Origin: a virus | DNA: 64,000 nt | Reading direction: 5' to 3' (one strand) | IMG/VR virus record: IMGVR_UViG_3300031963_000065 | Location: 20,970-84,969 of that record | Shown: piece by piece, positions 5,466-49,636 of the stretch | Numbering within the stretch: position 1 is the stretch's first letter | Layout: each line of letters starts with the position of its first letter | Made by a program: the position numbers and the translations under genes | The notes under the pieces: model-generated | Databases searched by the model: none | Seen by the model: the letters and a program-made list of their open reading frames with translations, nothing else | Told to the model about the DNA's origin: nothing

Positions 5466-5639
5466 TTACTCACTCAGCATATTTCTACATACCCGTTTAC
5501 AAGTTTGTTGGTCATCATCACATTCTATTAGACAGTTAAAATAATCATTGACTAACTCCATTTCATCATTACAACGGTCAACTGTTTGCTCAAAGTGTCG
5601 CCATTCTGCAAGTTGATTGTAAGAGACAAGGTTGTGCAT
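5466..5639 (-). CDS. Small cysteine-containing protein
   Basis: The 57-residue protein MHNLVSYNQLAEWRHFEQ... has four cysteines in its C-terminal half (CLIECDDDQQTCKRVCR) that could form disulfides or bind metal. GGAGG sits five bases before the ATG at 5639, which decides this start over an in-frame codon six residues upstream. It is a one-gene unit between two composite terminator/promoter elements. Confidence 0.65.
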   Translation of the reverse strand: MHNLVSYNQLAEWRHFEQTVDRCNDEMELVNDYFNCLIECDDDQQTCKRVCRNMLSE

Positions 5640-5765
5640 AATGTCCTCCACGCACAAGGATAATCATAACAAATAATTTTCGCTCATTTGTATGACCTCA
5701 TTATTCTACCATATGTATATTAGATATGTTACTTAGGATACAAAAATTTATGCCTATTAGAGAAA

Positions 5766-5806
5766 CTTATAGACATAAAAAAAGAGGGAGAGTCAATCTC
5801 CCTCAA
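5766..5806 (-). promoter_or_regulatory. Composite terminator, stop codon and probable -35 box
   Basis: The hairpin GAGGGAGA / TCTCCCTC with a T7 tail is a terminator. Its loop TTGAC contains the TGA stop codon of the 51-residue gene and also a -35-like TTGACT. The matching -10 is weaker: TCTATA at 17 bp or TATAAG at 19 bp. Confidence 0.6.
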
Positions 5807-5948
5807 ACTTAAACATTTTTTCAAACCACTCATCTAGATGAATAGTATAACAGGACCAATAATTACAACCCCTGTATGTTAGTTGATAGCAAGCAGGAGG
5901 TCTATTGTCCTTATCCATATCATCATAATGATATTTGTAGTTGTCCAT
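5793..5948 (-). CDS. Microgene, 51 residues
   Basis: The protein MDNYKYHYDDMDKDNRPPAC... is rich in Y, W and C (CNYWSCYTIHLDEWFEKM). Its start overlaps the stop of the preceding 28-residue gene by TAATG and its stop lies inside the loop of the terminator hairpin. It is the last gene of a four-gene microgene row. No family is recognised. Confidence 0.6.
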   Translation of the reverse strand: MDNYKYHYDDMDKDNRPPACYQLTYRGCNYWSCYTIHLDEWFEKMFKFEGD

Positions 5949-6034
5949 TATTTGTCCAACCACTGAACATACATTGATAAAAATACGGTTGTTAAAGCAA
6001 TCGCAGCAGTAGTTGATACCATGAACTGTACCAT
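5948..6034 (-). CDS. 28-residue predicted membrane peptide
   Basis: The peptide MVQFMVSTTAAIALTTVFLS... is almost one transmembrane helix, followed by MYVQWLDK. An AGGAG ends nine bases before the ATG, and TAATG overlaps link it to genes on both sides. The small size leaves doubt, but signal and spacing are good. Confidence 0.55.
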   Translation of the reverse strand: MVQFMVSTTAAIALTTVFLSMYVQWLDK

Positions 6035-6132
6035 TACCTTGCTCCTACTAATTGTGCTAGTTGGGCTTGATGACGACGCTCTTCTTTTTGTTTTTGCTCT
6101 TTAATGATTTGCAAGAAGTTTAGTTTCTTCAT
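6034..6132 (-). CDS. 32-residue basic peptide
   Basis: The peptide MKKLNFLQIIKEQKQKEERR... is a single charged helix. An AGGAGG seven bases upstream of the ATG and overlaps on both sides (ATGA and TAATG) support translation. No family is recognised. Confidence 0.55.
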   Translation of the reverse strand: MKKLNFLQIIKEQKQKEERRHQAQLAQLVGAR

Positions 6133-6266
6133 TTGTGCCCCTCCTTTACATACTTAACACCACGATAGGTTTCGTTGTATTGTTGGGGTTGTTGCATCAT
6201 CTGTTGTTGATATGCGATACGCTTTTCGGTATCGTATTCAGCACCACGATAAACTACTTTCGACAT
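6129..6266 (-). CDS. 45-residue protein with two YRG(A/V)xY motifs
   Basis: The protein MSKVVYRGAEYDTEKRIAYQ... repeats a short motif, VVYRGAEY near the start and TYRGVKY near the end, around a Q-rich middle. YRG-x-x-Y resembles the small cyanobacterial DUF4278 family. AGGAG lies seven bases before the ATG. It is the first gene after the second riboswitch-like element. Confidence 0.62.
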   Translation of the reverse strand: MSKVVYRGAEYDTEKRIAYQQQMMQQPQQYNETYRGVKYVKEGHK

Positions 6267-6300
6267 TGGTTTTCTCCTAAAGAAATGAGATGGTTAGTCC

Positions 6301-6472
6301 CGTTCCTTCAGTCGGCTTTTGCGTCTATGAAACAACCTTTCTTTGTGACTTGTTCAATTTCTAATATGAGACCAATTTTTTCATGGTCAGTGACGAAGTT
6401 ACTAGCATTAACTCTACTAATGAGAAGTTGTGCCTGTAAGCAAGATAAAAAGAGTTGCTCCATAGATGAACG
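6301..6472 (-). ncRNA. Downstream-peptide/glutamine-II riboswitch-like element A, with an ORF in its P2 loop
   Basis: The 5' part CGTTCATC lies at 6465-6472. The 3' part, GACGCAA then AGCCGACTGAAGGAACG, lies at 6301-6325. Together they match the conserved parts of the cyanobacterial Downstream-peptide (glutamine-II) RNA as I remember it: CGUUCAUC, P2, GACGCAAGU, GCCGACU, GAAGGAACG. P1 is CGTTC with GAACG. P2 pairs TCTATGGAG with TTTCATAGA, nine pairs including G-T. Unusually, about 130 bases holding a 51-codon ORF separate the halves, and the ORF start codon lies within P2. Confidence 0.55.
6308..6463 (-). CDS. 51-residue protein enclosed by riboswitch-like element A
   Basis: The protein MEQLFLSCLQAQLLISRVNA... 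is hydrophobic at the N-terminus and ends KKGCFIDAKAD. There is no Shine-Dalgarno; the ATG is part of the predicted P2 helix and the stop overlaps the conserved GACTGAAGG of the 3' half. If the RNA folds on glutamine, the start would be hidden. No family is recognised. Confidence 0.5.
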   Translation of the reverse strand: MEQLFLSCLQAQLLISRVNASNFVTDHEKIGLILEIEQVTKKGCFIDAKAD

Positions 6473-6475
6473 ATC

Positions 6476-6728
6476 CGTTCCGAGTCGGCTTACTTGCGTC
6501 CTATTCAGTTTTTAGCACCTTTGAACAACATCCTTTCGGAGTTCTAATAGCAATCGGTCTTCTCTTCTTTGGTCTACTACATCGTCGTTTTTAACGATGT
6601 CCATTAGTTCCCACGCTGCGTCACAACTTATAGTCACAGGATATGGATTCTGTATAAGTCGTGGCGTTGAAACAGAAAGAAGTGGAACCCATGCTAAAAG
6701 CAAAAGTGCTTTAGTCATAGGATGAACG
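6476..6728 (-). ncRNA. Downstream-peptide/glutamine-II riboswitch-like element B, with an ORF in its P2 loop
   Basis: The 5' part CGTTCATCC is at 6720-6728. The 3' part, GACGCAAGT then AAGCCGACTCGGAACG, is at 6476-6500. P1 pairs CGTTC with GAACG and P2 pairs TCCTAT with ATAGGA, different bases from element A but the same pairing, which is covariation within the window. The halves are about 215 bases apart and enclose a 68-codon ORF. Element A begins three bases after element B ends. Confidence 0.55.
6512..6718 (-). CDS. 68-residue protein with signal peptide, enclosed by riboswitch-like element B
   Basis: The protein begins MTKALLLLAWVPLLSVSTPR, a good export signal. The rest has one cysteine in the middle (TISCDAAW), a charged region and a C-terminal cysteine. 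There is no SD; the ATG directly follows the 5' strand of P2. The stop lies 13 bases before the conserved 3' half. No family is recognised. Confidence 0.55.
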   Translation of the reverse strand: MTKALLLLAWVPLLSVSTPRLIQNPYPVTISCDAAWELMDIVKNDDVVDQRREDRLLLELRKDVVQRC

Positions 6729-6758
6729 TTAGGGGATTATTATACCCCTATTCATCCT
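6719..6758 (-). repeat. Nested inverted repeat around a TATAAT box before the 68-residue gene
   Basis: The outer arms AGGATGAA / TTCATCCT and inner arms TAGGGG / CCCCTA are both perfect and surround TATAATAA. The right arm is also the conserved 5' part of riboswitch-like element B and touches the ATG. The structure could be an operator, an alternative pairing for the riboswitch strand, or a cruciform. Confidence 0.6.
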
Positions 6759-6812
6759 ATATAGGTCTTATATGTGTGAAAACAGTAACATAAGATACTA
6801 AATGGTATCTAT

Positions 6813-6853
6813 ATTATACTAAAAAGCGTGAAGATTTGTGAAAACCCTCACGC
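6813..6853 (-). promoter_or_regulatory. Terminator overlapping a sigma-70-type promoter
   Basis: GCGTGA / TCACGC with a T5 tail ends the operon at 6894. Its 16-base loop contains TTCACA, which lies 18 bp before TATAAT (6813-6818). This promoter would transcribe the riboswitch-like region. Confidence 0.55.
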
Positions 6854-6893
6854 AAGAAAATTTTGCCGGAAAAATTATTAGCGATATTGGAAA

Positions 6894-7154
6894 CTACTTT
6901 CGCTTTTTCTTTTCAGGCACATTATAACCCCATGACTTTGGATTGACTGTACCTTGAGTCCAATCCATTCGTCTTACATCACGATACTTATCCCAATAGT
7001 GGTCAAAGATATCAGAGCGAAGACCTTGAACTACATCAAACTTTTCTTCATCATTATCACCATAAGATACTAGATAAGAATCTCTTGGAAGACTCTTATC
7101 GTCAGCAAAAGAAGGATCACAATTTATGTGAATAATATTGATACCCTTTCCCAT
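6894..7154 (-). CDS. Conserved cyanophage protein, unknown function
   Basis: This 86-residue protein starts MGKGINIIHINCDPSFADDK and ends in a basic PEKKKRK tail, with a D-x-Y-W-D-K-Y-R-D-V segment between. The start directly follows the stop of the DUF6433-like gene (TGATATG), so the two are translated together. It may be a small nucleic-acid-associated protein given its basic tail, but there is no motif to prove this. Confidence 0.68.
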   Translation of the reverse strand: MGKGINIIHINCDPSFADDKSLPRDSYLVSYGDNDEEKFDVVQGLRSDIFDHYWDKYRDVRRMDWTQGTVNPKSWGYNVPEKKKRK

Positions 7155-7155
7155 A

Positions 7156-7770
7156 TCAAGAACGATTGCCCCACTGAATATCGGGGAATGCTTCAGCAAC
7201 ATCATCCTGAGTAAGATTGTATTTGTCGGTTAGTTTTTTATCTTTTACAAGACAAATAATCTCTGCTTCAAGTGGGTGTAAACCTTGGAGAAGATTGATA
7301 AACATACTTTCTCTACGAATGCTGTTCATACTATCATTACCACCTTTCACAAAGAAATAAAAGTTCTTCGCCTCTTTACGAATAGTAGTTCTAGCCTGCT
7401 GATCAGTCACTCCCATTGAGAATGAACCAGTCTCATACATTCTACGTGTCTCTTGACTGATTTTGGTAGAAAGTGTACCAGAGTTTACAGTTTGTTCATC
7501 ATAAGAGGAATATGGAACTTCCCCTGGTGGAAGAACACTTACAACACTCTCATCAAAGTTCCAAATGAGGATGATCTTAAGAGACATATCCTCATATTTT
7601 TTCAGAACTTCGACTTTTTTTGCTTTGGTTTTTTGTTTCGATACTAGATCAAGAACCTCAAAAACCAGTGGATTATTAGGGAGTTCTAGTGAGGTAGAAA
7701 CCTTAACAGTCCTTGGTTTTGTATTGGTAGTGTTACTCGTCGTCTTCTTCGTCGTTGATTTCGTAGTCAT
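7156..7770 (-). CDS. DUF6433-like conserved cyanophage protein
   Basis: The 204-residue protein has a T/K-rich N-terminal 30 residues followed by a conserved domain: FEVLDLVSKQKTKAKKVEVL, LIWNFDESVVSVLPPGEVPY, GGNDSMNSIRRESMFINLLQ and LHPLEAEIICLVKDKKL. These phrases are typical of a protein found in most T4-like cyanophages and named, as I recall, DUF6433. The function is unknown. Its start overlaps the upstream membrane-protein gene by 38 bases. Confidence 0.78.
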   Translation of the reverse strand: MTTKSTTKKTTSNTTNTKPRTVKVSTSLELPNNPLVFEVLDLVSKQKTKAKKVEVLKKYEDMSLKIILIWNFDESVVSVLPPGEVPYSSYDEQTVNSGTLSTKISQETRRMYETGSFSMGVTDQQARTTIRKEAKNFYFFVKGGNDSMNSIRRESMFINLLQGLHPLEAEIICLVKDKKLTDKYNLTQDDVAEAFPDIQWGNRS

Positions 7771-31941: not shown

Positions 31942-33279
31942 TCAACCAATTGCAGGTGCGGTGAGTGCAACAGGAGTTGACTCGGCAGCAGCAAGATCAA
32001 GTGGGAAATTGTGCAAATGTGTTATCGTAAAGACTCTTTATTCTTTACTTCTTACTGTCGCCAGTAAGTTCAGACTATCTCTTCATCCTTATGTTTATTA
32101 AGGAGTCGGGCATTCGTGGGTAGATTATTGTTGGGACTCACTACCTAGTCGTTAGACCTTTCAGAAAACTTAAACCCTTTCTGACTTGGTACGGGATTGT
32201 CTCATAGAGAGTTTCCCCGTTTAACCCGATTTTACTAATGCCTATTACTAGGCAAGAACACCAACAAGTCTAGCGTTCCTTTCGTGCATTACCTCCATGC
32301 CCAGTCCAGCACGGTTGAGAACATCAGCCCAAGTGTTAATAACTTTTCCTTGACTATCAACAATAGACTGGTTGAAATTAAAGCCGTTGAGGTTGAAAGC
32401 CATCGTGGAAACACCAAGAGCGGTGAACCAGATGCCTACAACAGGCCAGGCAGCAAGGAAGAAGTGCAGCGAACGGGAGTTATTAAAGGAAGCATATTGA
32501 AAAATAAGGCGACCGAAATAACCGTGAGCGGCTACAATGTTGTAGGTCTCTTCTTCTTGTCCGAACTTGTATCCATAGTTCTGTGACTCATTCTCTGTCG
32601 TCTCGCGGACAAGAGAAGAGGTGACAAGAGATCCATGCATAGCAGAGAAAAGAGAACCACCGAAGACCCCAGCAACTCCCAGCATGTGGAAAGGATGCAT
32701 AAGAATGTTGTGTTCTGCCTGGAAAACAAGCATGTAGTTGAAAGTGCCTGAAATCCCCAGAGGCATCGCATCAGAGAAGGATCCTTGACCGAAGGGATAG
32801 ACCAGGAACACTGCGCTAGCAGCAGCAACGGGTGCAGAGTAGGCAACACAAATCCAAGGACGCATACCGAGTCGGTAAGAAAGTTCCCATTCGCGTCCCA
32901 TGTAAGCATAGATGCCGATCAGAAAGTGGAAGACGACCAGTTGGAAAGGTCCTCCATTATATAGCCACTCATCTAGGGAAGAAGCTTCCCAGATGGGGTA
33001 AAAGTGCAGTCCAATAGCATTGGACGAAGGAATAACAGCACCAGAGATGATGTTGTTTCCGTACATGAGTGAACCAGCAACGGGTTCACGGATTCCATCA
33101 ATGTCCACAGGGGGAGCACCGATGAAGGCGATGATGAAACAAGTCGTAGCAGCAAGCAGGCAAGGAATCATCAGGACTCCGAACCAACCGACATAAAGAC
33201 GATTATCGGTTGAGGTGACCCAGTTGCAGAATTGTTCCCAAGTATTCGATTGTCGTTGTTGTGCAATAGAAGCAGCCAT
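31942..33279 (-). CDS. psbA: Photosystem II D1 protein, interrupted by a group I intron
   Basis: Exon 1 is 33279 to 32272 (336 codons, ending HERNA) and exon 2 is 32013 to 31942 ([20 protein letters not shown] plus AIG). Spliced D1 has 359 residues, normal length. Reading through without splicing gives [12 protein letters not shown] and a stop. The Mn-cluster ligands H332 and E333 are in exon 1, while H337, D342 and the new C-terminus at A344 are in exon 2. Splicing is therefore needed for oxygen evolution. [20 protein letters not shown] is intact. Confidence 0.96.
32014..32271 (-). ncRNA. Group I intron in psbA
   Basis: The intron is 258 bases. Exon 1 ends in T and the intron ends in G, as group I rules require. 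The exon end GAACGCT pairs with intron GGTGTTC as P1, with a T-G wobble at the splice site. ACGACTA and ATAGTCT, spaced as in the T4 td intron, can form P7. Stop codons fill all three frames, so it encodes no protein. Joining the exons restores N-A-H-N-F exactly. Confidence 0.9.
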
Positions 33280-33446
33280 TTTTTTAAAAAGATAGTAAGA
33301 CCATCAGGGAAATGGTGGAGATACTATGCTCCCCGCACCCTTAGCGGGGATATGAGAGACGGATTGGTAACCCTGCCTAGTCTCGGTCAAGCGGCAGGAG
33401 TGTTACAACTTGTTTCGGAAAGTTACATTCCGTAACGTTGTTGATG
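33280..33446 (-). promoter_or_regulatory. Structured 5' leader of psbA (PhotoRC-like candidate)
   Basis: The 165-base leader has three stems: CCTGCC / GGCAGG (33372-33398), CCCCGC / GCGGGG (33331-33349) and ACCAT / ATGGT (33300-33316). There is no clear SD before the ATG. Structured psbA leaders named PhotoRC are known in marine cyanobacteria and phages; I cannot confirm that this is one of them. Confidence 0.6.
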
Positions 33447-44126: not shown

Positions 44127-44256
44127 TCATTAGGTCTTTACATGCACGCCACTTGCTCTTTGTCCAGAAGCAAGAAACTGGGCGGGGTATACCCCATCCG
44201 CACCAGGGTTTTTATCGTGTCTCCATCACGGGCATATTGGGGATTGACTCCACCAC
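44127..44256. other. Intergenic stretch without a confident gene
   Basis: I see a perfect palindrome GGGGTATACCCC (44184-44195) and a minus-strand frame of about 40 codons without a start codon (reads GDTIKTLVRMGYTPPSFLLL then DKEQVACM). It may be the remnant of a gene. Confidence 0.4.
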
Positions 44257-45070: not shown

Positions 45071-45144
45071 TCCGAGATGCAGGATTCGAACCTGCGACCC
45101 CTTCAGCCCAAGTGAAGTGCGCTACCAAACTGCGCTAATCCCGG
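45071..45144 (-). tRNA. tRNA-Pro (UGG)
   Basis: The cloverleaf is complete: acceptor CCGGGAT / ATCTCGG, anticodon loop CTTGGGC between CTTCA and TGAAG, and a T-arm with GGTTCGAATCC. No CCA is encoded. A perfect promoter lies 35 bases upstream. Confidence 0.95.
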
Positions 45145-45178
45145 TTGCGTTGAGTGGTCTTGCCTCTCAACAGAAGTA

Positions 45179-45207
45179 ATTATACTACTTCTTGTGCCCT
45201 TTGTCAA
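45179..45207 (-). promoter_or_regulatory. Perfect consensus promoter of tRNA-Pro
   Basis: TTGACA and TATAAT are 17 bp apart, all twelve bases consensus. The element covers the stop codon of the 50-residue gene. Confidence 0.82.
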
Positions 45208-45337
45208 ATGGAGCCCAGTGTTGCCAGTCGTATTTGTGGACTGCCCAGATGCCCAAGATAGGCACAAAGACCATTATGTAACAAATGAATCCAAGAAATA
45301 AATCATTGTTGAGTGCTGCTGCTGCGAAATGTCCCAT
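45185..45337 (-). CDS. 50-residue membrane protein
   Basis: The protein MGHFAAAALNNDLFLGFICY... has one transmembrane helix and ends WQHWAPFDKGHKK. It starts one base after the upstream stop. The last codons form the spacer of the tRNA-Pro promoter. Confidence 0.6.
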   Translation of the reverse strand: MGHFAAAALNNDLFLGFICYIMVFVPILGIWAVHKYDWQHWAPFDKGHKK

Positions 45338-45338
45338 A

Positions 45339-45545
45339 TTAATCCCATTCCTCGTAATATCTTCTAAAGTAAGAATCTACTTTTTTTAAATCATCTAGGT
45401 GGATATTACATGTATAGTTATTATCATCACACCATTGTAGAGCCATCCAATGAAAGTTTTCCTCTCTCATCACTCTTTCCACACCATAACTTCTAGCAAA
45501 AGAAGACATAACGAAGTTCCAACACTGACTAGTGTGCTGTTCCAT
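45339..45545 (-). CDS. 68-residue conserved protein
   Basis: The protein MEQHTSQCWNFVMSSFARSY... is helical and contains HWMALQWCDDNNYTC. I start at the ATG at 45545; the longer frame continues into the coding sequence of the upstream gene. No family is recognised. Confidence 0.5.
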   Translation of the reverse strand: MEQHTSQCWNFVMSSFARSYGVERVMREENFHWMALQWCDDNNYTCNIHLDDLKKVDSYFRRYYEEWD

Positions 45546-45660
45546 TTCCTTTATAATCCTCTGAGTCGTAATAACTCCCTTTCTTTGATCCAACATATAA
45601 AGTAGCAACCACAAAAGGGATTGCTAATACAACAAGAAACCTTCCTAATAAATGGGGCAT
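45529..45660 (-). CDS. 43-residue membrane protein
   Basis: The protein MPHLLGRFLVVLAIPFVVAT... has an N-terminal hydrophobic helix and a soluble end YYDSEDYKGNGTAH. TAATG links it to the upstream gene, and GGAGG lies upstream. Confidence 0.58.
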   Translation of the reverse strand: MPHLLGRFLVVLAIPFVVATLYVGSKKGSYYDSEDYKGNGTAH

Positions 45661-45782
45661 TACATTCCTCCGTTTCTAAATCCAACTAGGTATCCAATAA
45701 TAAGTCCACACATAAATGCTACAAACATATAGAGCATATGTGAGAAAAAGTCAATGAAAATAAACCACTCTTCAGTCGTCAT
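45660..45782 (-). CDS. 40-residue membrane protein
   Basis: The protein MTTEEWFIFIDFFSHMLYMF... is one hydrophobic helix ending in YLVGFRNGGM. It overlaps the upstream gene by 11 bases and the downstream gene by one. Confidence 0.58.
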   Translation of the reverse strand: MTTEEWFIFIDFFSHMLYMFVAFMCGLIIGYLVGFRNGGM

Positions 45783-45957
45783 CTTGGTTCATTAACTCCT
45801 CTATTCGTTTTCTCATATTGGTCATTTTTTGTTTCTCGTGGTCCATATGAGTATATCCACGATGCCCTTTCATTATCATTGTGCCTTGATAGAACATCGT
45901 GGCAGCAAAGATAAGAAGCAGAACTATACCTATTATTTCAGGGTAATGTTGAGCCAT
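45772..45957 (-). CDS. 61-residue membrane protein
   Basis: The protein MAQHYPEIIGIVLLLIFAAT... has one N-terminal helix and a charged tail (DHEKQKMTNMRKRIEELMNQ). It is overlapped at both ends by neighbouring microgenes. Confidence 0.6.
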   Translation of the reverse strand: MAQHYPEIIGIVLLLIFAATMFYQGTMIMKGHRGYTHMDHEKQKMTNMRKRIEELMNQDDD

Positions 45958-46136
45958 GGTAGTAAGGGTGGAATGACGCCTATAAGCCTTAGCAGTCCTT
46001 CAGCAAATAAAGCAAGGACAACCCAACCAACGCACATAGAAATAATGGAAGCATTTCGATTGTGCCTTCGTATAGCAGCATCAATCATCTCCTGGCATTC
46101 AGAGCGAGTGATTAACTCTTCTTGTTCGTGTATCAT
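45933..46136 (-). CDS. 67-residue membrane protein
   Basis: The protein begins with a soluble helix (MIHEQEELITRSECQEMIDA) and ends with a transmembrane segment (MCVGWVVLALFAEGLLRLIG). It overlaps the upstream gene by ATGA. Confidence 0.6.
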   Translation of the reverse strand: MIHEQEELITRSECQEMIDAAIRRHNRNASIISMCVGWVVLALFAEGLLRLIGVIPPLLPWLNITLK

Positions 46137-46282
46137 TTTTCATCACCAAGAAACTTCGCCAGAGGGTCTCTTCTGGTCTTTACAATTTCTACTGCTCTCT
46201 TGTAGAACATATTGTCTGTGTTACCAGACTCTTCGAAGGTCGCCTTGATCTTCACCCAATTCTCGTAGGTGTGCTGATCCAT
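46133..46282 (-). CDS. 49-residue conserved cyanophage protein
   Basis: The protein MDQHTYENWVKIKATFEESG... ends RRDPLAKFLGDEK, a sequence I remember as recurrent in T4-like cyanophages. The ATG at 46282 is chosen because the promoter lies in the upstream part of the longer frame. The function is unknown. Confidence 0.66.
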   Translation of the reverse strand: MDQHTYENWVKIKATFEESGNTDNMFYKRAVEIVKTRRDPLAKFLGDEK

Positions 46283-46310
46283 ACGGGTTTTAAATTGAAT
46301 ACTACTAGCT

Positions 46311-46338
46311 ATAATAGCAAGTAGTTTCAACCCGTCAA
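46311..46338 (-). promoter_or_regulatory. Sigma-70-type promoter
   Basis: TTGACG and TATTAT are 16 bp apart, 29 bases before the 49-residue gene that starts the membrane-protein microgene row. Confidence 0.6.
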
Positions 46339-46391
46339 CTTTGTGTTGATTTCAAAAAAGTGTTGAAGAAATTATTAAATCTTAAATAAAA

Positions 46392-46476
46392 CGGAGAGAG
46401 TAGGATTCGAACCAACGGAAGCTTTCACTTCGGCAGTTTTCAAGACTGCTGCCTTAAACCACTCGGCCATCTCTCC
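46392..46476 (-). tRNA. tRNA-Ser (UGA)
   Basis: This is an 85-base class II tRNA with a long variable arm. The acceptor is GGAGAGA / TCTCTCC, the anticodon loop is TCTTGAAAA with TGA, and the T-arm has GGTTCGAATCC. Confidence 0.95.
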
Positions 46477-46482
46477 AAATTT

Positions 46483-46740
46483 TCAGCGAACTTCAAAGTC
46501 CAGTTTACGAACCTTGCGTTGCTTTCTTTGTTCTTGCCACAGGATATCTTCTTGTGTAAGAACACCCTTTTTATTTTTGGGTTGATAAGAGTTTAGCATA
46601 ATAACATTAGATAAGTCAAGTGCTGAAATCTTATCACCACGAATAGTCGCCATATTAGGGCAACCACAAGTCACCGTTTTATTCTGATGCCCCTCTAACT
46701 CCTTACCACAGGAGCGGCATCTTATCTTAATGTTATCCAT
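46483..46740 (-). CDS. Zinc-ribbon protein
   Basis: The 85-residue protein starts with MDNIKIRCRSCGKELEGHQN and C-G-C-P a little later, a four-cysteine zinc ribbon. The C-terminal half is charged. Conserved in cyanophages as I recall; possibly a DNA- or RNA-binding factor. A TATAAATA lies 28 bases upstream. Confidence 0.7.
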   Translation of the reverse strand: MDNIKIRCRSCGKELEGHQNKTVTCGCPNMATIRGDKISALDLSNVIMLNSYQPKNKKGVLTQEDILWQEQRKQRKVRKLDFEVR

Positions 46741-46763
46741 TATAAGTTAACTGTATTCAGTTT

Positions 46764-47300
46764 TCAGTTATTTATATGAAACTTCGGATGTTGCTTGTCC
46801 TTACTATAACGCCCACCTTTACTCTTCTGGGGCGGTAAAGTTTTTTGTGCGTGACAATTAGGACAGACCACTTGTAGGTTTTCAGGAGAATGGTTAAAAG
46901 GGTCGTCGTCTATGTGGTCCACCTCAAGGCAGATTCGTCCTGTATGGATGTTTGTGCCAGACCAACCACAAAGAGAACACTTACCCCCGCTCGCTTCCAG
47001 TAGATAGTTTCTTATGTATCCTGGCGTATCCCCCCTATCAGTTGATAATGCGTTGCCCGCCAACCAGTTCTCTACTTTTAGTTTCTTCCTACCAGCGGCA
47101 CTACACTCATTGGAGCAAAACTTACCAGTGCTCTTCTTGGTCTGGTAGTCAAACTCCACACCACAGTGTTGGCAAGTGGCAGTCTTCCAGGCGGTTCTCT
47201 TACGCTTGGGCGTATTTTTGTTATTATAAATGGCGGCACAGGATCGGGAGCAGAACTTAGGTTTATCGTGCTCGCATCCGCAGTTTAGACAACTATTCAT
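46764..47300 (-). CDS. HNH homing endonuclease with zinc fingers
   Basis: The 178-residue protein has two N-terminal C-x2-C...C-x3-C fingers (CLNCGCEHDKPKFCSRSC and CQHCGVEFDYQ...FCSNEC). Its HNH core is KCSLCGW, ICLEVDHIDDDPFNHSPENL, VVCPNCHAQK. This arrangement is common in phage homing endonucleases that recognise long DNA targets. It has its own TATAAATA promoter. Confidence 0.88.
   Translation of the reverse strand: MNSCLNCGCEHDKPKFCSRSCAAIYNNKNTPKRKRTAWKTATCQHCGVEFDYQTKKSTGKFCSNECSAAGRKKLKVENWLAGNALSTDRGDTPGYIRNYLLEASGGKCSLCGWSGTNIHTGRICLEVDHIDDDPFNHSPENLQVVCPNCHAQKTLPPQKSKGGRYSKDKQHPKFHINN
46769..46776 (-). promoter_or_regulatory. Late promoter (TATAAATA)
   Basis: A perfect late box lies in the last codons of the HNH gene, 28 bases before the zinc-ribbon gene. 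Confidence 0.62.
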
Positions 47301-47322
47301 AATAGAAACAAAGACCTATTAT

Positions 47323-47330
47323 TATTTATA
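47323..47330 (-). promoter_or_regulatory. Late promoter (TATAAATA) of the HNH gene
   Basis: TATAAATA lies 22 bases before the HNH ATG. Confidence 0.65.
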
Positions 47331-47374
47331 ACATAAGTCTCCGTTTCTATTAAGTTGTCAGTAAACTCTAATAA

Positions 47375-47447
47375 TGCCCGATACAGGTAACGCTCCCGTC
47401 AATGTCTGAGTGTAAATCAGGTCCCTTCACTTGCTGGGTCATCGGGC
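47375..47447 (-). tRNA. Aberrant tRNA-Val(UAC)-like element
   Basis: The 73 bases fold in exact tRNA geometry. Acceptor is GCCCGAT / ATCGGGC plus A; D-stem CCC / GGG; anticodon loop TTTACAC (anticodon TAC) on CTGA / TCAG; T-stem ACGGG / CCTGT with a seven-base loop. But the D-loop lacks GG and the T-loop reads AGCGTTA instead of TTCRANY, so both parts of the normal D-T loop contact are gone. It may be a decayed tRNA or a tRNA-like RNA with another role. Confidence 0.5.
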
Positions 47448-47469
47448 AGGTCTATTACACCTGAGTGTA

Positions 47470-47631
47470 TCAACATTGTAGCATATACTCTACAGTTTTG
47501 GCAACATCTTCCATAGCCAGTCTCAAATCTTCCCTCTGCCCAGATTCTTGTCTGCAGATAGGGCGTCGGTCATCAACAAGAGTCCAACGCCATTGATTCA
47601 TATCAGCACAATACCACAGATTAATTTTCAT
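47470..47631 (-). CDS. 53-residue conserved cyanophage protein
   Basis: The protein MKINLWYCADMNQWRWTLVD... continues QREDLRLAMEDVAKTVEYML. I recall closely similar small proteins in T4-like cyanophages. It overlaps the upstream gene by 11 bases. The function is unknown. Confidence 0.7.
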   Translation of the reverse strand: MKINLWYCADMNQWRWTLVDDRRPICRQESGQREDLRLAMEDVAKTVEYMLQC

Positions 47632-47824
47632 TCTTCTGATATTCTAGTTTGATCCAGTTTAAAAGAGCATAAGTTTCTGATAGTTCTAACTTATGATCTT
47701 GGTAGTCAGTATCTTCCAACATACCCTCTCTTTCATAAAACTCAATCTCACTAGAAAGATAATCAATATAATGATTGATGGCGGTGATAGTAAGTTGCCT
47801 ATCCCGTTGTGAAATAAGAGACAT
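47621..47824 (-). CDS. 67-residue helical protein
   Basis: The protein MSLISQRDRQLTITAINHYI... is two helices (HKLELSETYALLNWIKLEYQ) without membrane segments. No family is recognised. Confidence 0.62.
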   Translation of the reverse strand: MSLISQRDRQLTITAINHYIDYLSSEIEFYEREGMLEDTDYQDHKLELSETYALLNWIKLEYQKNEN

Positions 47825-47843
47825 AAGACTTCTCAGTATACTA

Positions 47844-47999
47844 CTATCTATTCAGGCAAGTATCTCCCACTTGCCCATCAAGTTTTTTATGTTCTGCTGT
47901 ATGAATTCCTTGTATCAACACAAAAGTGACTAAAAGAACTGTAGGCACTGCCCACATTTCATTTCCAATTGCTCTAAGGATCTTTAAAAGTTTAATCAT
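47844..47999 (-). CDS. 51-residue membrane protein
   Basis: The protein MIKLLKILRAIGNEMWAVPT... has one transmembrane helix followed by HTAEHKKLDGQVGDTCLNR. Its start codon lies right in the T tail of the upstream terminator, so it needs readthrough or its own nearby start. Confidence 0.5.
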   Translation of the reverse strand: MIKLLKILRAIGNEMWAVPTVLLVTFVLIQGIHTAEHKKLDGQVGDTCLNR

Positions 48000-48021
48000 A
48001 AAAAAGGGGTCCGAAGACCCC
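48000..48021 (-). terminator. Terminator with TTCG tetraloop
   Basis: GGGGTC / GACCCC with a TTCG loop and T6 tail is a very stable terminator for the beta-barrel gene at 48038. Confidence 0.88.
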
Positions 48022-48037
48022 AGTATTATAGCATAAA

Positions 48038-48421
48038 TCAGAAGCTATAACGAACTTTAACTTCACCACCAAGATCAAGGACCTCAGAACTCATACCATA
48101 CTCACCAGCAACTTTCCCTTTGAGGGAAACTTTCTTAGCAAGAGGATAAGAGAAACCTACTTCACCAACGGCAACACCTTCACTCTTAGTTTTACCAGTG
48201 TTGAACTCATAACCAGGACCGATTTCGCCATAGACTTTCAGACCAGACTTACCAACCTTTTCATCATAACCAACACGAAGTTCGGTTTGAGAACCTTTGT
48301 AGGTGCTCTTATCACTGGTAACAGAGATACCAGAGGTGGTCTTACTTTCTACATATGGACCAGCAAGGGCAGGTGCCGCAATCATCGGAAGTGCCATTGC
48401 GGCAAGAGCGATTGCTTTCAT
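48038..48421 (-). CDS. Secreted small beta-barrel-like protein 1
   Basis: The 127-residue protein has a signal peptide MKAIALAAMALPMIAAPALA, with cleavage before GPYVESK. The rest alternates hydrophobic and polar residues (TELRVGYDEKVGKSGLKVYG; LGGEVKVRYSF) and ends in F, as outer-membrane barrel proteins do. It parallels the gene at 48555. It is likely an exported envelope protein or a virion protein; I cannot tell which. Confidence 0.65.
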   Translation of the reverse strand: MKAIALAAMALPMIAAPALAGPYVESKTTSGISVTSDKSTYKGSQTELRVGYDEKVGKSGLKVYGEIGPGYEFNTGKTKSEGVAVGEVGFSYPLAKKVSLKGKVAGEYGMSSEVLDLGGEVKVRYSF

Positions 48422-48457
48422 AAAAATCTCCTTTTATAAACATTAAATGTCTTCAAT

Positions 48458-48488
48458 AAAAAAGACCCCTATATTCTAACAGGGGTCT
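48458..48488 (-). terminator. Intrinsic terminator
   Basis: AGACCCCT / AGGGGTCT with a T6 tail ends the transcript from the gene at 48555. Confidence 0.82.
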
Positions 48489-48554
48489 TTAAGTTTGTCG
48501 TTAAGGTTTAGTTAACAATCAATGTGGACAGTTAGGTTCCACAAACCTTCTATT

Positions 48555-48914
48555 TCAGAAGGTGTACTTCACACCAGCCTTGATGTTGCTGGTCAGGTCA
48601 TCACCAGTCAGGAACCAGTACTCACCATAGACGCTCAGGTTGTCGGTAGCGGCAACAGAAGCACCTGCCTTACCAGAAACCTTAACGGTTGCGTCACCAC
48701 CTTCAGGAGTGGACAGTGCAGGACCAACCTGAACATAACCGTTAACGGTAGGAGACAGAGCACCTTCATAACCAAGATGTGCTTCGGTCAGAGTACCGAT
48801 GTAGTCAGAACCAACGACACCAGCGTTAGATTCTACATTAACATAAGGGCCAGCGAACGCAGCCGAAGCAAGGAAAGGAGCAGCAGCAACAGCTGCGATT
48901 GCGGATTTAAACAT
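48555..48914 (-). CDS. Secreted small beta-barrel-like protein 2
   Basis: In this 119-residue protein the signal peptide MFKSAIAAVAAAPFLASAAF-A is followed by GPYVNVESNAG. The body has repeated strands (LTEAHLGYEGALSPTVNGYV; DNLSVYGEYWFLTG) and ends KAGVKYTF. It shares the mature start GPYV and final F with the gene at 48038, so the two are probably paralogues. Each has its own terminator. Confidence 0.65.
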   Translation of the reverse strand: MFKSAIAAVAAAPFLASAAFAGPYVNVESNAGVVGSDYIGTLTEAHLGYEGALSPTVNGYVQVGPALSTPEGGDATVKVSGKAGASVAATDNLSVYGEYWFLTGDDLTSNIKAGVKYTF

Positions 48915-49021
48915 AATAGTACCTCTAAGTTTCTCGCAGAATTATACCTGCGGATGTAAGGAGAATCGACTTTCTCCGTTTCAGTGACTCAACGAGTATT
49001 TGAGGTTTTATCACTTGAACA

Positions 49022-49056
49022 TATTTATTTTAACATTCGCTTAACCTTTTTGTCAA
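49022..49056 (-). promoter_or_regulatory. Late promoter with overlapping sigma-70-like element
   Basis: AATAAATA (49022-49029) overlaps a weak TTAAAA -10 box lying 17 bp after a perfect TTGACA (49051-49056). A leader of about 100 bases runs to the gene at 48555. Confidence 0.5.
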
Positions 49057-49082
49057 GGGGGTGGTTAACCGAATCTTTTAAA

Positions 49083-49155
49083 AAGCGGAGTATCGGATTC
49101 GAACCGACGACGAACTGCTTGGAAGGCAGCCATTCTACCACTGAATTAACTCCGC
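49083..49155 (-). tRNA. tRNA-Gly (UCC)
   Basis: Acceptor GCGGAGT / ACTCCGC, anticodon loop CTTCCAA between GCTGC and GCAGT, T-arm with GGTTCGAATCC. It is followed by a T5 run. Confidence 0.95.
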
Positions 49156-49201
49156 AGGCGGTGGGAGATTGCTCTCCCAAACACTTGCCCACACGGAAGG
49201 G

Positions 49202-49230
49202 ATTATAAGACGGAGTTTTATTTCCGTCAA
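49202..49230 (-). promoter_or_regulatory. Sigma-70-type promoter of tRNA-Gly
   Basis: TTGACG and TATAAT are 17 bp apart. The -35 box begins at the last base of tRNA-Thr. Confidence 0.75.
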
Positions 49231-49302
49231 GCCCCCGCTCGGAATCGAACCGAGAATCTTCCGCTTACAAGGCGGATGCAGTAACCGTTATGCTACAAGG
49301 GC
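49230..49302 (-). tRNA. tRNA-Thr (UGU)
   Basis: Acceptor GCCCTTG / CGGGGGC with two wobble pairs, anticodon loop CTTGTAA on CCGC / GCGG, T-arm GGTTCGATTCC. Confidence 0.94.
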
Positions 49303-49305
49303 AGG

Positions 49306-49379
49306 CTCCTGCTGCTGGGCTCGAACCAGCGACATCCGGATTAACAGTCCAGCGCAACTACCAACTGTGCTAAGCAGGA
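49306..49379 (-). tRNA. tRNA-Asn (GUU)
   Basis: Acceptor TCCTGCT / AGCAGGA, anticodon loop CTGTTAA on TGGA / TCCG, T-arm GGTTCGAGCCC. It starts directly after the stop codon of the 55-residue gene. Confidence 0.94.
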
Positions 49380-49547
49380 TTACAGGGGTTTAACACCCTG
49401 TTCCTTACAAAGTTTGAAGTAGAGTTTATAATACCTCTGCTTCATCTCAGCAAGGATTTTATTGTCCTCTTCAAAACCCAATTTCTTGGTATGGGCATAA
49501 CACCCCTCAAGTTCTCCAATTAATATTAGAATTTTTATTGGGTCCAT
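49380..49547 (-). CDS. 55-residue helical protein between tRNAs
   Basis: The protein MDPIKILILIGELEGCYAHT... continues KQRYYKLYFKLCKEQGVKPL. It lies between tRNA-Arg and tRNA-Asn in the same direction. No family is recognised. Confidence 0.62.
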   Translation of the reverse strand: MDPIKILILIGELEGCYAHTKKLGFEEDNKILAEMKQRYYKLYFKLCKEQGVKPL

Positions 49548-49563
49548 AATGAAGAAAGGACAA

Positions 49564-49636
49564 CAGGCACGGCTGGACTCGAACCAGCAATCGGCAACTT
49601 AGAAGGTTGATGCATTATCCATTATGCTACGTGCCC
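49564..49636 (-). tRNA. tRNA-Arg (UCU)
   Basis: Acceptor GGGCACG / CGTGCCT (first pair G-T), anticodon loop CTTCTAA on CAAC / GTTG, T-arm GGTTCGAGTCC. UCU reads AGA and AGG codons that are frequent in A+T-rich phage genes. Confidence 0.94.

Follow-up and report, generated by a model that had tools for sequence, protein, structure and literature searches.

A single composite RNA, assembled from two glutamine-riboswitch cores, is predicted on the minus strand of the window (the whole stretch of 64,000 nucleotides that was analysed). At 6728-6300 the glutamine-riboswitch core occurs twice, each time interrupted by an open reading frame (68 and 51 codons), and comparison with related sequences indicates that the locus is one RNA rather than two tandem elements. 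We hold it probable that this RNA is a composite glutamine riboswitch with two cores and with gene slots in its P2 loops, and that its folding with glutamine keeps the embedded genes off.

Layout of the locus

The source virus record (84,969 bases) would fit a T4-like cyanophage, because it carries tRNA genes and the wcaG and PhotoRC-II RNAs (Rfam). Within the window the wcaG RNA lies at 44138-44231 on the minus strand (RF01761, 70.3 bits), and six tRNA matches (Rfam) lie within 45071-49636 on the same strand (45071-45144, 46392-46476, 49084-49155, 49230-49302, 49306-49379 and 49564-49636).

Read along the minus strand, the predicted composite opens with the outer P1 5' strand A5 (CGTTC, 6724..6728; partner 6301-6305), a single base (A6723) and the P2A 5' strand TCCTAT (6717..6722), which includes the A and T of the start codon of embedded gene A. 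This gene (6512..6718) encodes 68 amino acids with a hydrophobic N-terminus. The P2A 3' strand ATAGGA (6499..6504) is followed directly by the element A 3' part CGCAAGTAAGCCGACTCGGAACG (6498-6476). That part holds the outer junction CGCAAGUA (6491..6498), in which C6496 would form a long-range pair with G6300 and AGUA would form one side of a loop E; the 5' strand of the shared P3, AGCCGACU (6483..6490); and the inner P1 5' strand A3 (GAACG, 6476..6480; partner 6468-6472).

After the inner P1 loop GAU (spacer GAT, 6473..6475), whose G6475 would form the inner long-range pair with C6321, come the inner P1 3' strand B5 (CGTTC, 6468..6472), a single base (A6467) and the P2B 5' strand TCTATG (6461..6466), which includes the whole start codon of embedded gene B. 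Gene B (6308..6463) encodes 51 amino acids, and its stop codon falls within P3 and loop E. The P2B 3' strand CATAGA (6324..6329) is followed directly by the element B 3' part CGCAAAAGCCGACTGAAGGAACG (6323-6301), consisting of the inner junction CGCAA (6319..6323), with C6321; the P3 3' strand AGCCGACU (6310..6317), which makes 6 standard pairs and two A.C mismatches with 6483-6490; GAA (6307..6309), the second loop-E side as placed by the RF01739 alignment of relatives, overlapping the TGA stop of gene B; and the outer P1 3' strand B3 (GAACG, 6301..6305). G6300, the partner of C6496, comes next. All of these features, like the gene for a 45-residue YRG/DUF4278-like protein (phrog_5049) downstream at 6129..6266, with AGGAG at 6278-6274, are on the minus strand.

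Relatives of the locus

A 551-base stretch of the locus finds matches in 135 of 50,697 phage records, which by name are Synechococcus (102), Prochlorococcus (18), Cyanophage (8) and Marine (7) phages. In S-PM2 the halves follow in the same order as in the window with short hairpins in place of both inserts, giving a gene-free RNA of 96 nt (L001 1489-1584); P-HM2 has a gene in each slot; in DSL-LC02 and S-RIM32 the first slot contains a hairpin and the second a gene. A set of 210 sequences was assembled from five phage-record loci, IMG/VR loci listed by pattern scans, and the window. A script found 171 units in them, of which 14 were incomplete and are left out of the counts below; the remaining 157, from 156 loci, all have the same anatomy. 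Because the phage records match and the anatomy recurs in all 157 complete units, the two-element anatomy at the window locus is confirmed as real rather than a product of chance. Chance or purely coding conservation is rejected as an explanation, since gene-free relatives retain the same RNA.

The IMG/VR scans select on parts of the motif and kinship among units is common, so the counts given here are not counts of independent events. One locus, L200, is entered twice in the pairing and slot counts of 157 and is omitted from the counts of P3 ends, leaders, GGAG loops and best TATAAT-like hexamers. It is a triplet, having an additional A-type element ahead of a normal composite, and resembles a recombination product.

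A short hairpin or a complete gene of 49-75 codons occupies each P2 loop, and all four combinations exist: hairpin in the first slot and gene in the second (82 of 157 units), hairpins in both (33), genes in both (30), and gene then hairpin (12). Further inserts occur in a few relatives. Six loci (L504, L523, L525, L572, L582 and L585) have a 595-nt insert in the inner P1 loop with a 192-codon ORF whose product, by eye, looks like a GIY-YIG homing endonuclease, and L182 has a remnant-like insert of about 70 nt with similar ends. In L185, a second AACGACTGAAGG-like stretch follows B3, with another CGTTCATCCCAT beyond the composite; the next ORF there has paired cysteines and may, by eye, encode an endonuclease.

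Searching bacterial and archaeal genomes with a 15-base pattern, which is too short for the purpose, gave at least 119 stretches, and none of the 80 titles inspected was cyanobacterial. A loose pattern fits 4 of those (at least) 119, and by eye these four lack the AGTA linker.

Pairing between the two elements

In the window every P1 strand could pair equally well with the partner from either element. Likewise the invariant majority of relatives fits both pairings, so the exceptions decide. Outer P1 (A5/B3) reads CGTTC/GAACG in 155 of the 157 units and CGTTT/AAACG in 2, while inner P1 (A3/B5) reads GAACG/CGTTC in 149 and CAACG/CGTTG in 8. A dedicated scan for CAACG at A3 gave at least 120 stretches, with 116 rows that the script could read, and B5 is CGTTG in all 116 (adjacent in 110 and beyond an insert in 6, five of which are located by an unbiased pattern and all six by a pattern requiring CGTTG). 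The same rows read CGTTC/GAACG (89) or CGTTT/AAACG (10) at A5/B3, with 17 unread on one side and none mixed. From the other direction, a scan for AAACG at B3 found 19 loci, and A5 is CGTTT in all 18 that are readable; the remaining one ends at the contig end. The outer swap probably arose more than once, because three loci (L602, L604 and L605) have it with inner P1 unchanged, and two of them (L604 and L605) have a different P3 type. Comparison of relatives thus shows the predicted partners in P1 to be A5 with B3 (outer) and A3 with B5 (inner).

Long-range pairs follow the same crossed arrangement. The outer pair, between the junction of element A and the base after B3, is C-G in 132 units, G-C in 24 and C-A in 1. 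The inner pair is C-G in 154, with G-C, G-U and C-A once each. The alternatives within one element are mismatched in 26 of 157 units for element A and 27 of 157 for element B. These pairs correspond to the long-range base pair C19:G41 in the crystal structure of the glutamine-II riboswitch (PMC6698751).

The helix common to both elements, P3, is likewise shown by comparison and would join the linker that follows AGUA in element A to the one that precedes GAA in element B. These linkers are complementary and change together: AGTCG with CGACT, AGTCA with TGACT, and AGCCGAC extended by T, A or G, opposite which stands A, T or C, respectively. At the last position of the long linkers a standard pair is found in 68 of 70 (T-A 47, G-C 11, A-T 7, T-G 3), and the end pair of the short linkers is G-C in 76 of 78 and A-T in 2. 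Over 31 distinct linker pairs the P3 score is 5.37, compared with 4.20 when partners are shuffled (maximum 4.69 in 1000 shuffles). For units with genes in both slots, which offer 5 distinct linker pairs, the score only equals that of the best shuffle.

When the nested scheme is applied to 30 natural gene-free RNAs, 95.0% of cells are paired and there are 73 double changes, against 18.3 in shuffles, none of 500 shuffles reaching as high. P3 is the weakest helix in this set (80.0% of cells), and two inner P3 positions are mostly mismatched (23/30 and 15/19), largely as A.C. From the alignment alone RNAalifold returns outer P1, P2A, inner P1 and P2B; P3 is not drawn in its consensus. Of five single-sequence minimum-energy folds, all contain outer P1 and one contains the inner P1 hairpin; folding z-scores are modest (-0.46 to -1.77).

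The original prediction drew two tandem elements with P1 formed inside each. On both counts the comparison goes the other way, the swaps being crossed (inner 116/116, outer 18/18) and P3 joining the elements. The suggestion that the middle 3' and 5' halves make a circularly permuted element is upheld by those A3/B5 swaps. The inner core is accordingly predicted to run GAACG, a spacer of mostly 3-4 nt, CGUUCA, P2 and GACGCA, in permuted strand order, and to sit at the far end of P3 of the outer core. Several further points of the prediction hold: a complete ORF does lie between the halves of each element, the start codon is in or beside P2 (partly for gene A, wholly for gene B), and the P2 helices of the window, 6 bp each, differ in base content and covary across genes in relatives. 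The covariation it proposed to look for in P1 and P2 is thus found, with P1 partners other than those drawn.

Family assignment

The window carries CGUUCA, GACG, loop-E AGUA with GAA, and GAACG, that is, the glutamine-I core. Rfam gives no glutamine-riboswitch match in the window at the gathering cut-offs (35 bits for RF01739, 33 bits for RF01704), nor in 5600-7300 at E<=5, and RF01739 has 0 matches at E<=10 in the window's own virus record. The RF01739 miss would be expected, because two genes are inserted. Gene-free relatives are more informative. RF01739 exceeds its cut-off in 6 of 11 such loci, and in four of these it spans A5 to B3 as a single aptamer: L032 and L046 (43.6 bits; their composites are identical, the RNA of L032 being 82 nt long, and 38 bases are shown inside the P3 loop in the alignment), L112 (40.3) and L069 (39.6). 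In L020 and L047 it covers one element only, and in the other five (L027, L066, L072, L102 and L109) nothing exceeds the cut-off. In L003, which has a gene in slot B, RF01739 scores 35.6 bits over element A alone.

RF01704 stays below its cut-off in L004 (26.3 bits), L001 (24.6) and L005 (21.6), and gives nothing over the cut-off in the window or in 11 further gene-free loci; membership of the glutamine-II family is rejected at these scores. The P2 hairpin of glutamine-II, with GGAACG in its loop, is absent: in RF01704 alignments the P2 of the model is largely gaps and non-pairs, and the linker at that position pairs with the other element instead. Since RF01739 aligns some composites from A5 to B3 and RF01704 remains below its cut-off, the outer core is assigned to the glutamine-I (glnA, RF01739) aptamers and is predicted to bind glutamine. 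The three-way junction of P1, P2 and P3 that is typical of glutamine-I has covariation support in relatives. In the 155 units counted, the loop-E strands are AGUA in all (the script requires it) and GAA in 118 or AAA in 37. The glutamine-riboswitch halves of the original prediction stand, and the proposed match to the Downstream-peptide/glutamine-II family does not. Of the two Rfam models that it named, RF01739 matches some gene-free relatives, and neither matches the window.

With glutamine-I the composite shares outer P1, P2, the GACG core, the AGUA and GAA strands and GAAGGAACG; it differs in that its P3 loop contains a whole second, permuted core and in that its P2 loops may house genes. 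Its likeness to glutamine-II lies in the CGUUCA...GACGC...GGAACGG core, the C-G long-range pair and the presence of small ORFs downstream (PMC2864571), but it lacks the P2 hairpin around GAACG. The glutamine-II aptamer is functional when made of two separate RNA pieces (PMC6698751). In cyanophage S-CREM1 a glnA match of 99 nt and 44.0 bits is reported (PMC9964418), a length that would suit such a composite.

Genes in the P2 loops

Comparison of relatives shows the slot sequences to behave as coding genes bound to their slots. Differences between related embedded genes (233 pairs) fall at codon positions 1, 2 and 3 in the numbers 2517, 1326 and 4423. The start ATG lies 3-7 nt after CGTTCA in 151 of 153 ORFs (exceptions 10 and 15 nt). 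This distance is 3-5 nt in slot B (111 of 112 units) and 4 or 5 nt in slot A (38 of 41 units). In slot B 105 of 112 ORFs end at the TGA or TAA of GACTGAA or GACTAAA within the core. Of the 41 ORFs in slot A, 12 use the TAA of AGTAAG as their stop and 18 end immediately ahead of GACGCA. In read-through frames the 3' half of the RNA also encodes protein ends, for example DAND and IGRK. The P2 stem persists across the genes, with a mean of 5.22 in slot A (3.79 shuffled, maximum 4.72, 32 distinct cases) and 6.10 in slot B (4.42 shuffled, maximum 4.93, 71 distinct cases), each over 1000 shuffles.

Six of seven embedded proteins match PHROG entries with no assigned function, phrog_504 in slot B and phrog_6471 or phrog_13397 in slot A. 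For the slot-A protein of the window (68 aa) neither Pfam nor PHROG gives a match, and that of slot B has a weak match to phrog_504 (E 2.7e-4); across eight proteins, Pfam gives sub-threshold matches only. In IMG/VR protein searches, the best 80 of 542 matches to a phrog_6471-type query are all flanked by both RNA halves (79 are shown in slot A and one reaches the contig end), and the best 80 of at least 407 matches to a phrog_504-type query, from which the RNA-encoded C-terminus was removed, are all in slot B. For the slot-A family, AlphaFold (L018 protein, pLDDT 80.8) predicts a helical pair with confidence and, with low confidence, an N-terminal helix. Sequences shared between slots are seen as well. 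The slot-A gene of L039 and the slot-B gene of L010 are 91% identical in protein over 57 residues, and an identical compact hairpin is found in both slots (e.g. L132 slot A, L001 slot B). Only best cross-slot matches are used here, single-linkage clustering having joined 152 of 153 embedded proteins.

Proposed start masking, putative promoter and downstream gene

One or more start-codon bases fall within the P2 stem in 61 of 71 distinct cases for slot B and 14 of 31 for slot A. Among units with a slot-B gene, the inner P1 loop begins GAG in 61 of 111, which creates an SD-like GGAG before the start; where slot B is gene-free, it does so in 0 of 44. Within the AGTAAGTCGC lineage this loop is found in 60 of 67 units with a slot-B gene and 0 of 7 without; the window's own lineage, AGTAAGCCGACTC, has it in 0 of 35 units with a slot-B gene.

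A TATAAT at 6739..6744 (minus strand), a promoter -10-like box by sequence, lies 10 nt upstream of the aptamer in the window, and a consensus promoter scan of the window lists no promoter there. The exact hexamer occurs in 76 of 157 units. In 100 of the 151 units measured, the hexamer most like TATAAT has its end 7-8 nt ahead of A5, so the transcript would appear to begin at the aptamer. A terminator-like hairpin is present just upstream, at 6853-6826 on the minus strand (1 found, 0.4 expected in shuffles), and for this reason the composite may start its own transcription unit.

A downstream gene is found by rule in 148 of 157 units, and those inspected encode YRG proteins, with rare exceptions; the protein in the window is DUF4278-like, below the Pfam cut-off. 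Leaders of the G type after B3 can form a competing hairpin from the last base of outer P1 in 83 of 96 distinct cases, with a mean of 3.9 pairs (shuffles 2.5, maximum 3.0). In 57 of 96 the first three bases of this hairpin have their exact complement present, compared with 45.7 when they are dealt among leaders (maximum 56 in 1000). In most C-type leaders, CUCUUU beginning at the long-range base can pair with AAGGAG. Because nucleotides after outer P1 can join a hairpin beside its ribosome-binding site, the downstream YRG gene is probably switched as well; for the direction, ON is weakly preferred. Under nearest-neighbour folding the downstream SD shows no consistent switch, its mean unpaired value being 0.30 when the aptamer is enforced and 0.31 in the free fold (n = 32).

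Proposed mechanism and its alternatives

The first 5' half and the last 3' half would make up the outer core, a glutamine-I aptamer, and the middle two halves a second, circularly permuted core standing on P3 of the outer one; both cores would bind glutamine. With glutamine present the cores would fold and P2 would bury the starts of the embedded genes, turning them off; for slot B, one lineage would bury its SD-like GGAG, in the inner loop, as well. With glutamine low, or a ribosome translating, the cores would open and the microproteins would be made. Nucleotides just after outer P1 could alternatively join the hairpin near the ribosome-binding site of the YRG gene. The fullest form of this proposal, a two-site nested glutamine riboswitch with a permuted aptamer, interchangeable gene slots, a sensor that covers gene starts, microproteins made only at low glutamine and the YRG gene read out separately, is offered tentatively, as somewhat more apt to fail in one of its parts than to hold in all of them.

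It is rather unlikely that the inner core caps P3 for structural reasons alone and binds no glutamine, which would make the RNA a single-site glutamine-I switch with an elaborate loop. Such a cap would suit an inner core without a loop-E motif and with very short linkers joining it to P3; yet this core retains the core bases and its own long-range pair (C-G in 154/157), and the pocket of glutamine-II is a pseudoknot helix rather than a loop-E three-way junction (PMC6698751). An unlikely reading is that the composite fold is right and the genes are passive cassettes, recombined at the conserved halves into tolerant P2 loops, outside any glutamine control. The near-identical gene and the hairpin shared between slots, the endonuclease-like gene that invaded the inner P1 loop in six loci and the triplet arrangement of L200 all speak for passengers. 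Against this, P2 pairing is maintained across genes, the distance of ATG from CGTTCA is tight in both slots, the GGAG loop follows gene presence in one lineage, and, for both main gene families, the best 80 matches are all found between RNA halves.

That the composite fold turns the embedded genes ON with glutamine, by protecting or presenting their starts or by the translation of one aiding the next, is improbable. One characterised glutamine riboswitch, that of a GS-inactivating factor, is an ON switch (PMC6698751, PMC7760959), and the anti-SD CUCUUU of the type with C after outer P1 begins at the long-range-pair base, but the published ON cases concern downstream genes, and for embedded genes the folded state pairs the start region. 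Least of all do we expect a tandem of two independent aptamers, with P1 formed within each from its own CGTTC and GAACG. This scheme (without P3) pairs 97.0% of cells in 30 compact RNAs, agrees with the invariant majority and has a precedent in the tandem glutamine riboswitches in print (PMC9481103); however, each long-range pair is then broken in 9 of the 30 compact RNAs, P3 connects the elements, and P1 changes compensate between A5 and B3 and between A3 and B5, not between A5 and A3 or B5 and B3. Separate tandem aptamers are rejected on the P1 swaps and the broken long-range pairs.

Relation to known systems

Glutamine riboswitches have been published in cyanophages (PMC9964418, PMC9602691) and in a marine methylophage (PMC9004378), and a review counts 157 doublets and 4 triplets of tandem glutamine riboswitches (PMC9481103). 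Some of those doublets and triplets may be RNAs of the present kind, whereas the review treats them as pseudo-cooperative tandem units. Its available passages mention no nesting, permutation or enclosed gene ('nested' occurs 0 times, and the sole 'permut' concerns ribozymes). A literature search of incomplete coverage returned no paper on nested or permuted riboswitches, and its queries on circular permutation with glutamine or tandem riboswitches and on ORFs inside riboswitches gave nothing that looks to the point. The nested layout with a whole gene in the loop of each sensor therefore seems, provisionally, to be previously undescribed.

If the composite reading is right, the locus offers a natural case of an aptamer nested in an aptamer with circular permutation, and of complete protein genes housed within a metabolite sensor. 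It would account for the failure of Rfam to detect the gene-bearing copy, suggest that some of the glutamine-riboswitch doublets in the published count are single composites, and offer a testable route by which cyanophages link small genes to the nitrogen state of the cell.

Group I introns are structured, self-splicing RNAs that carry homing genes in peripheral loops. The composite, too, is a predicted structured RNA with a gene in a loop; unlike them, its host RNA is a riboswitch and its genes encode microproteins of 49-75 codons. The window has a group I intron of its own at 32051-32283 on the minus strand (RF00028, 61.2 bits), with the PhotoRC-II RNA nearby at 33316-33411.
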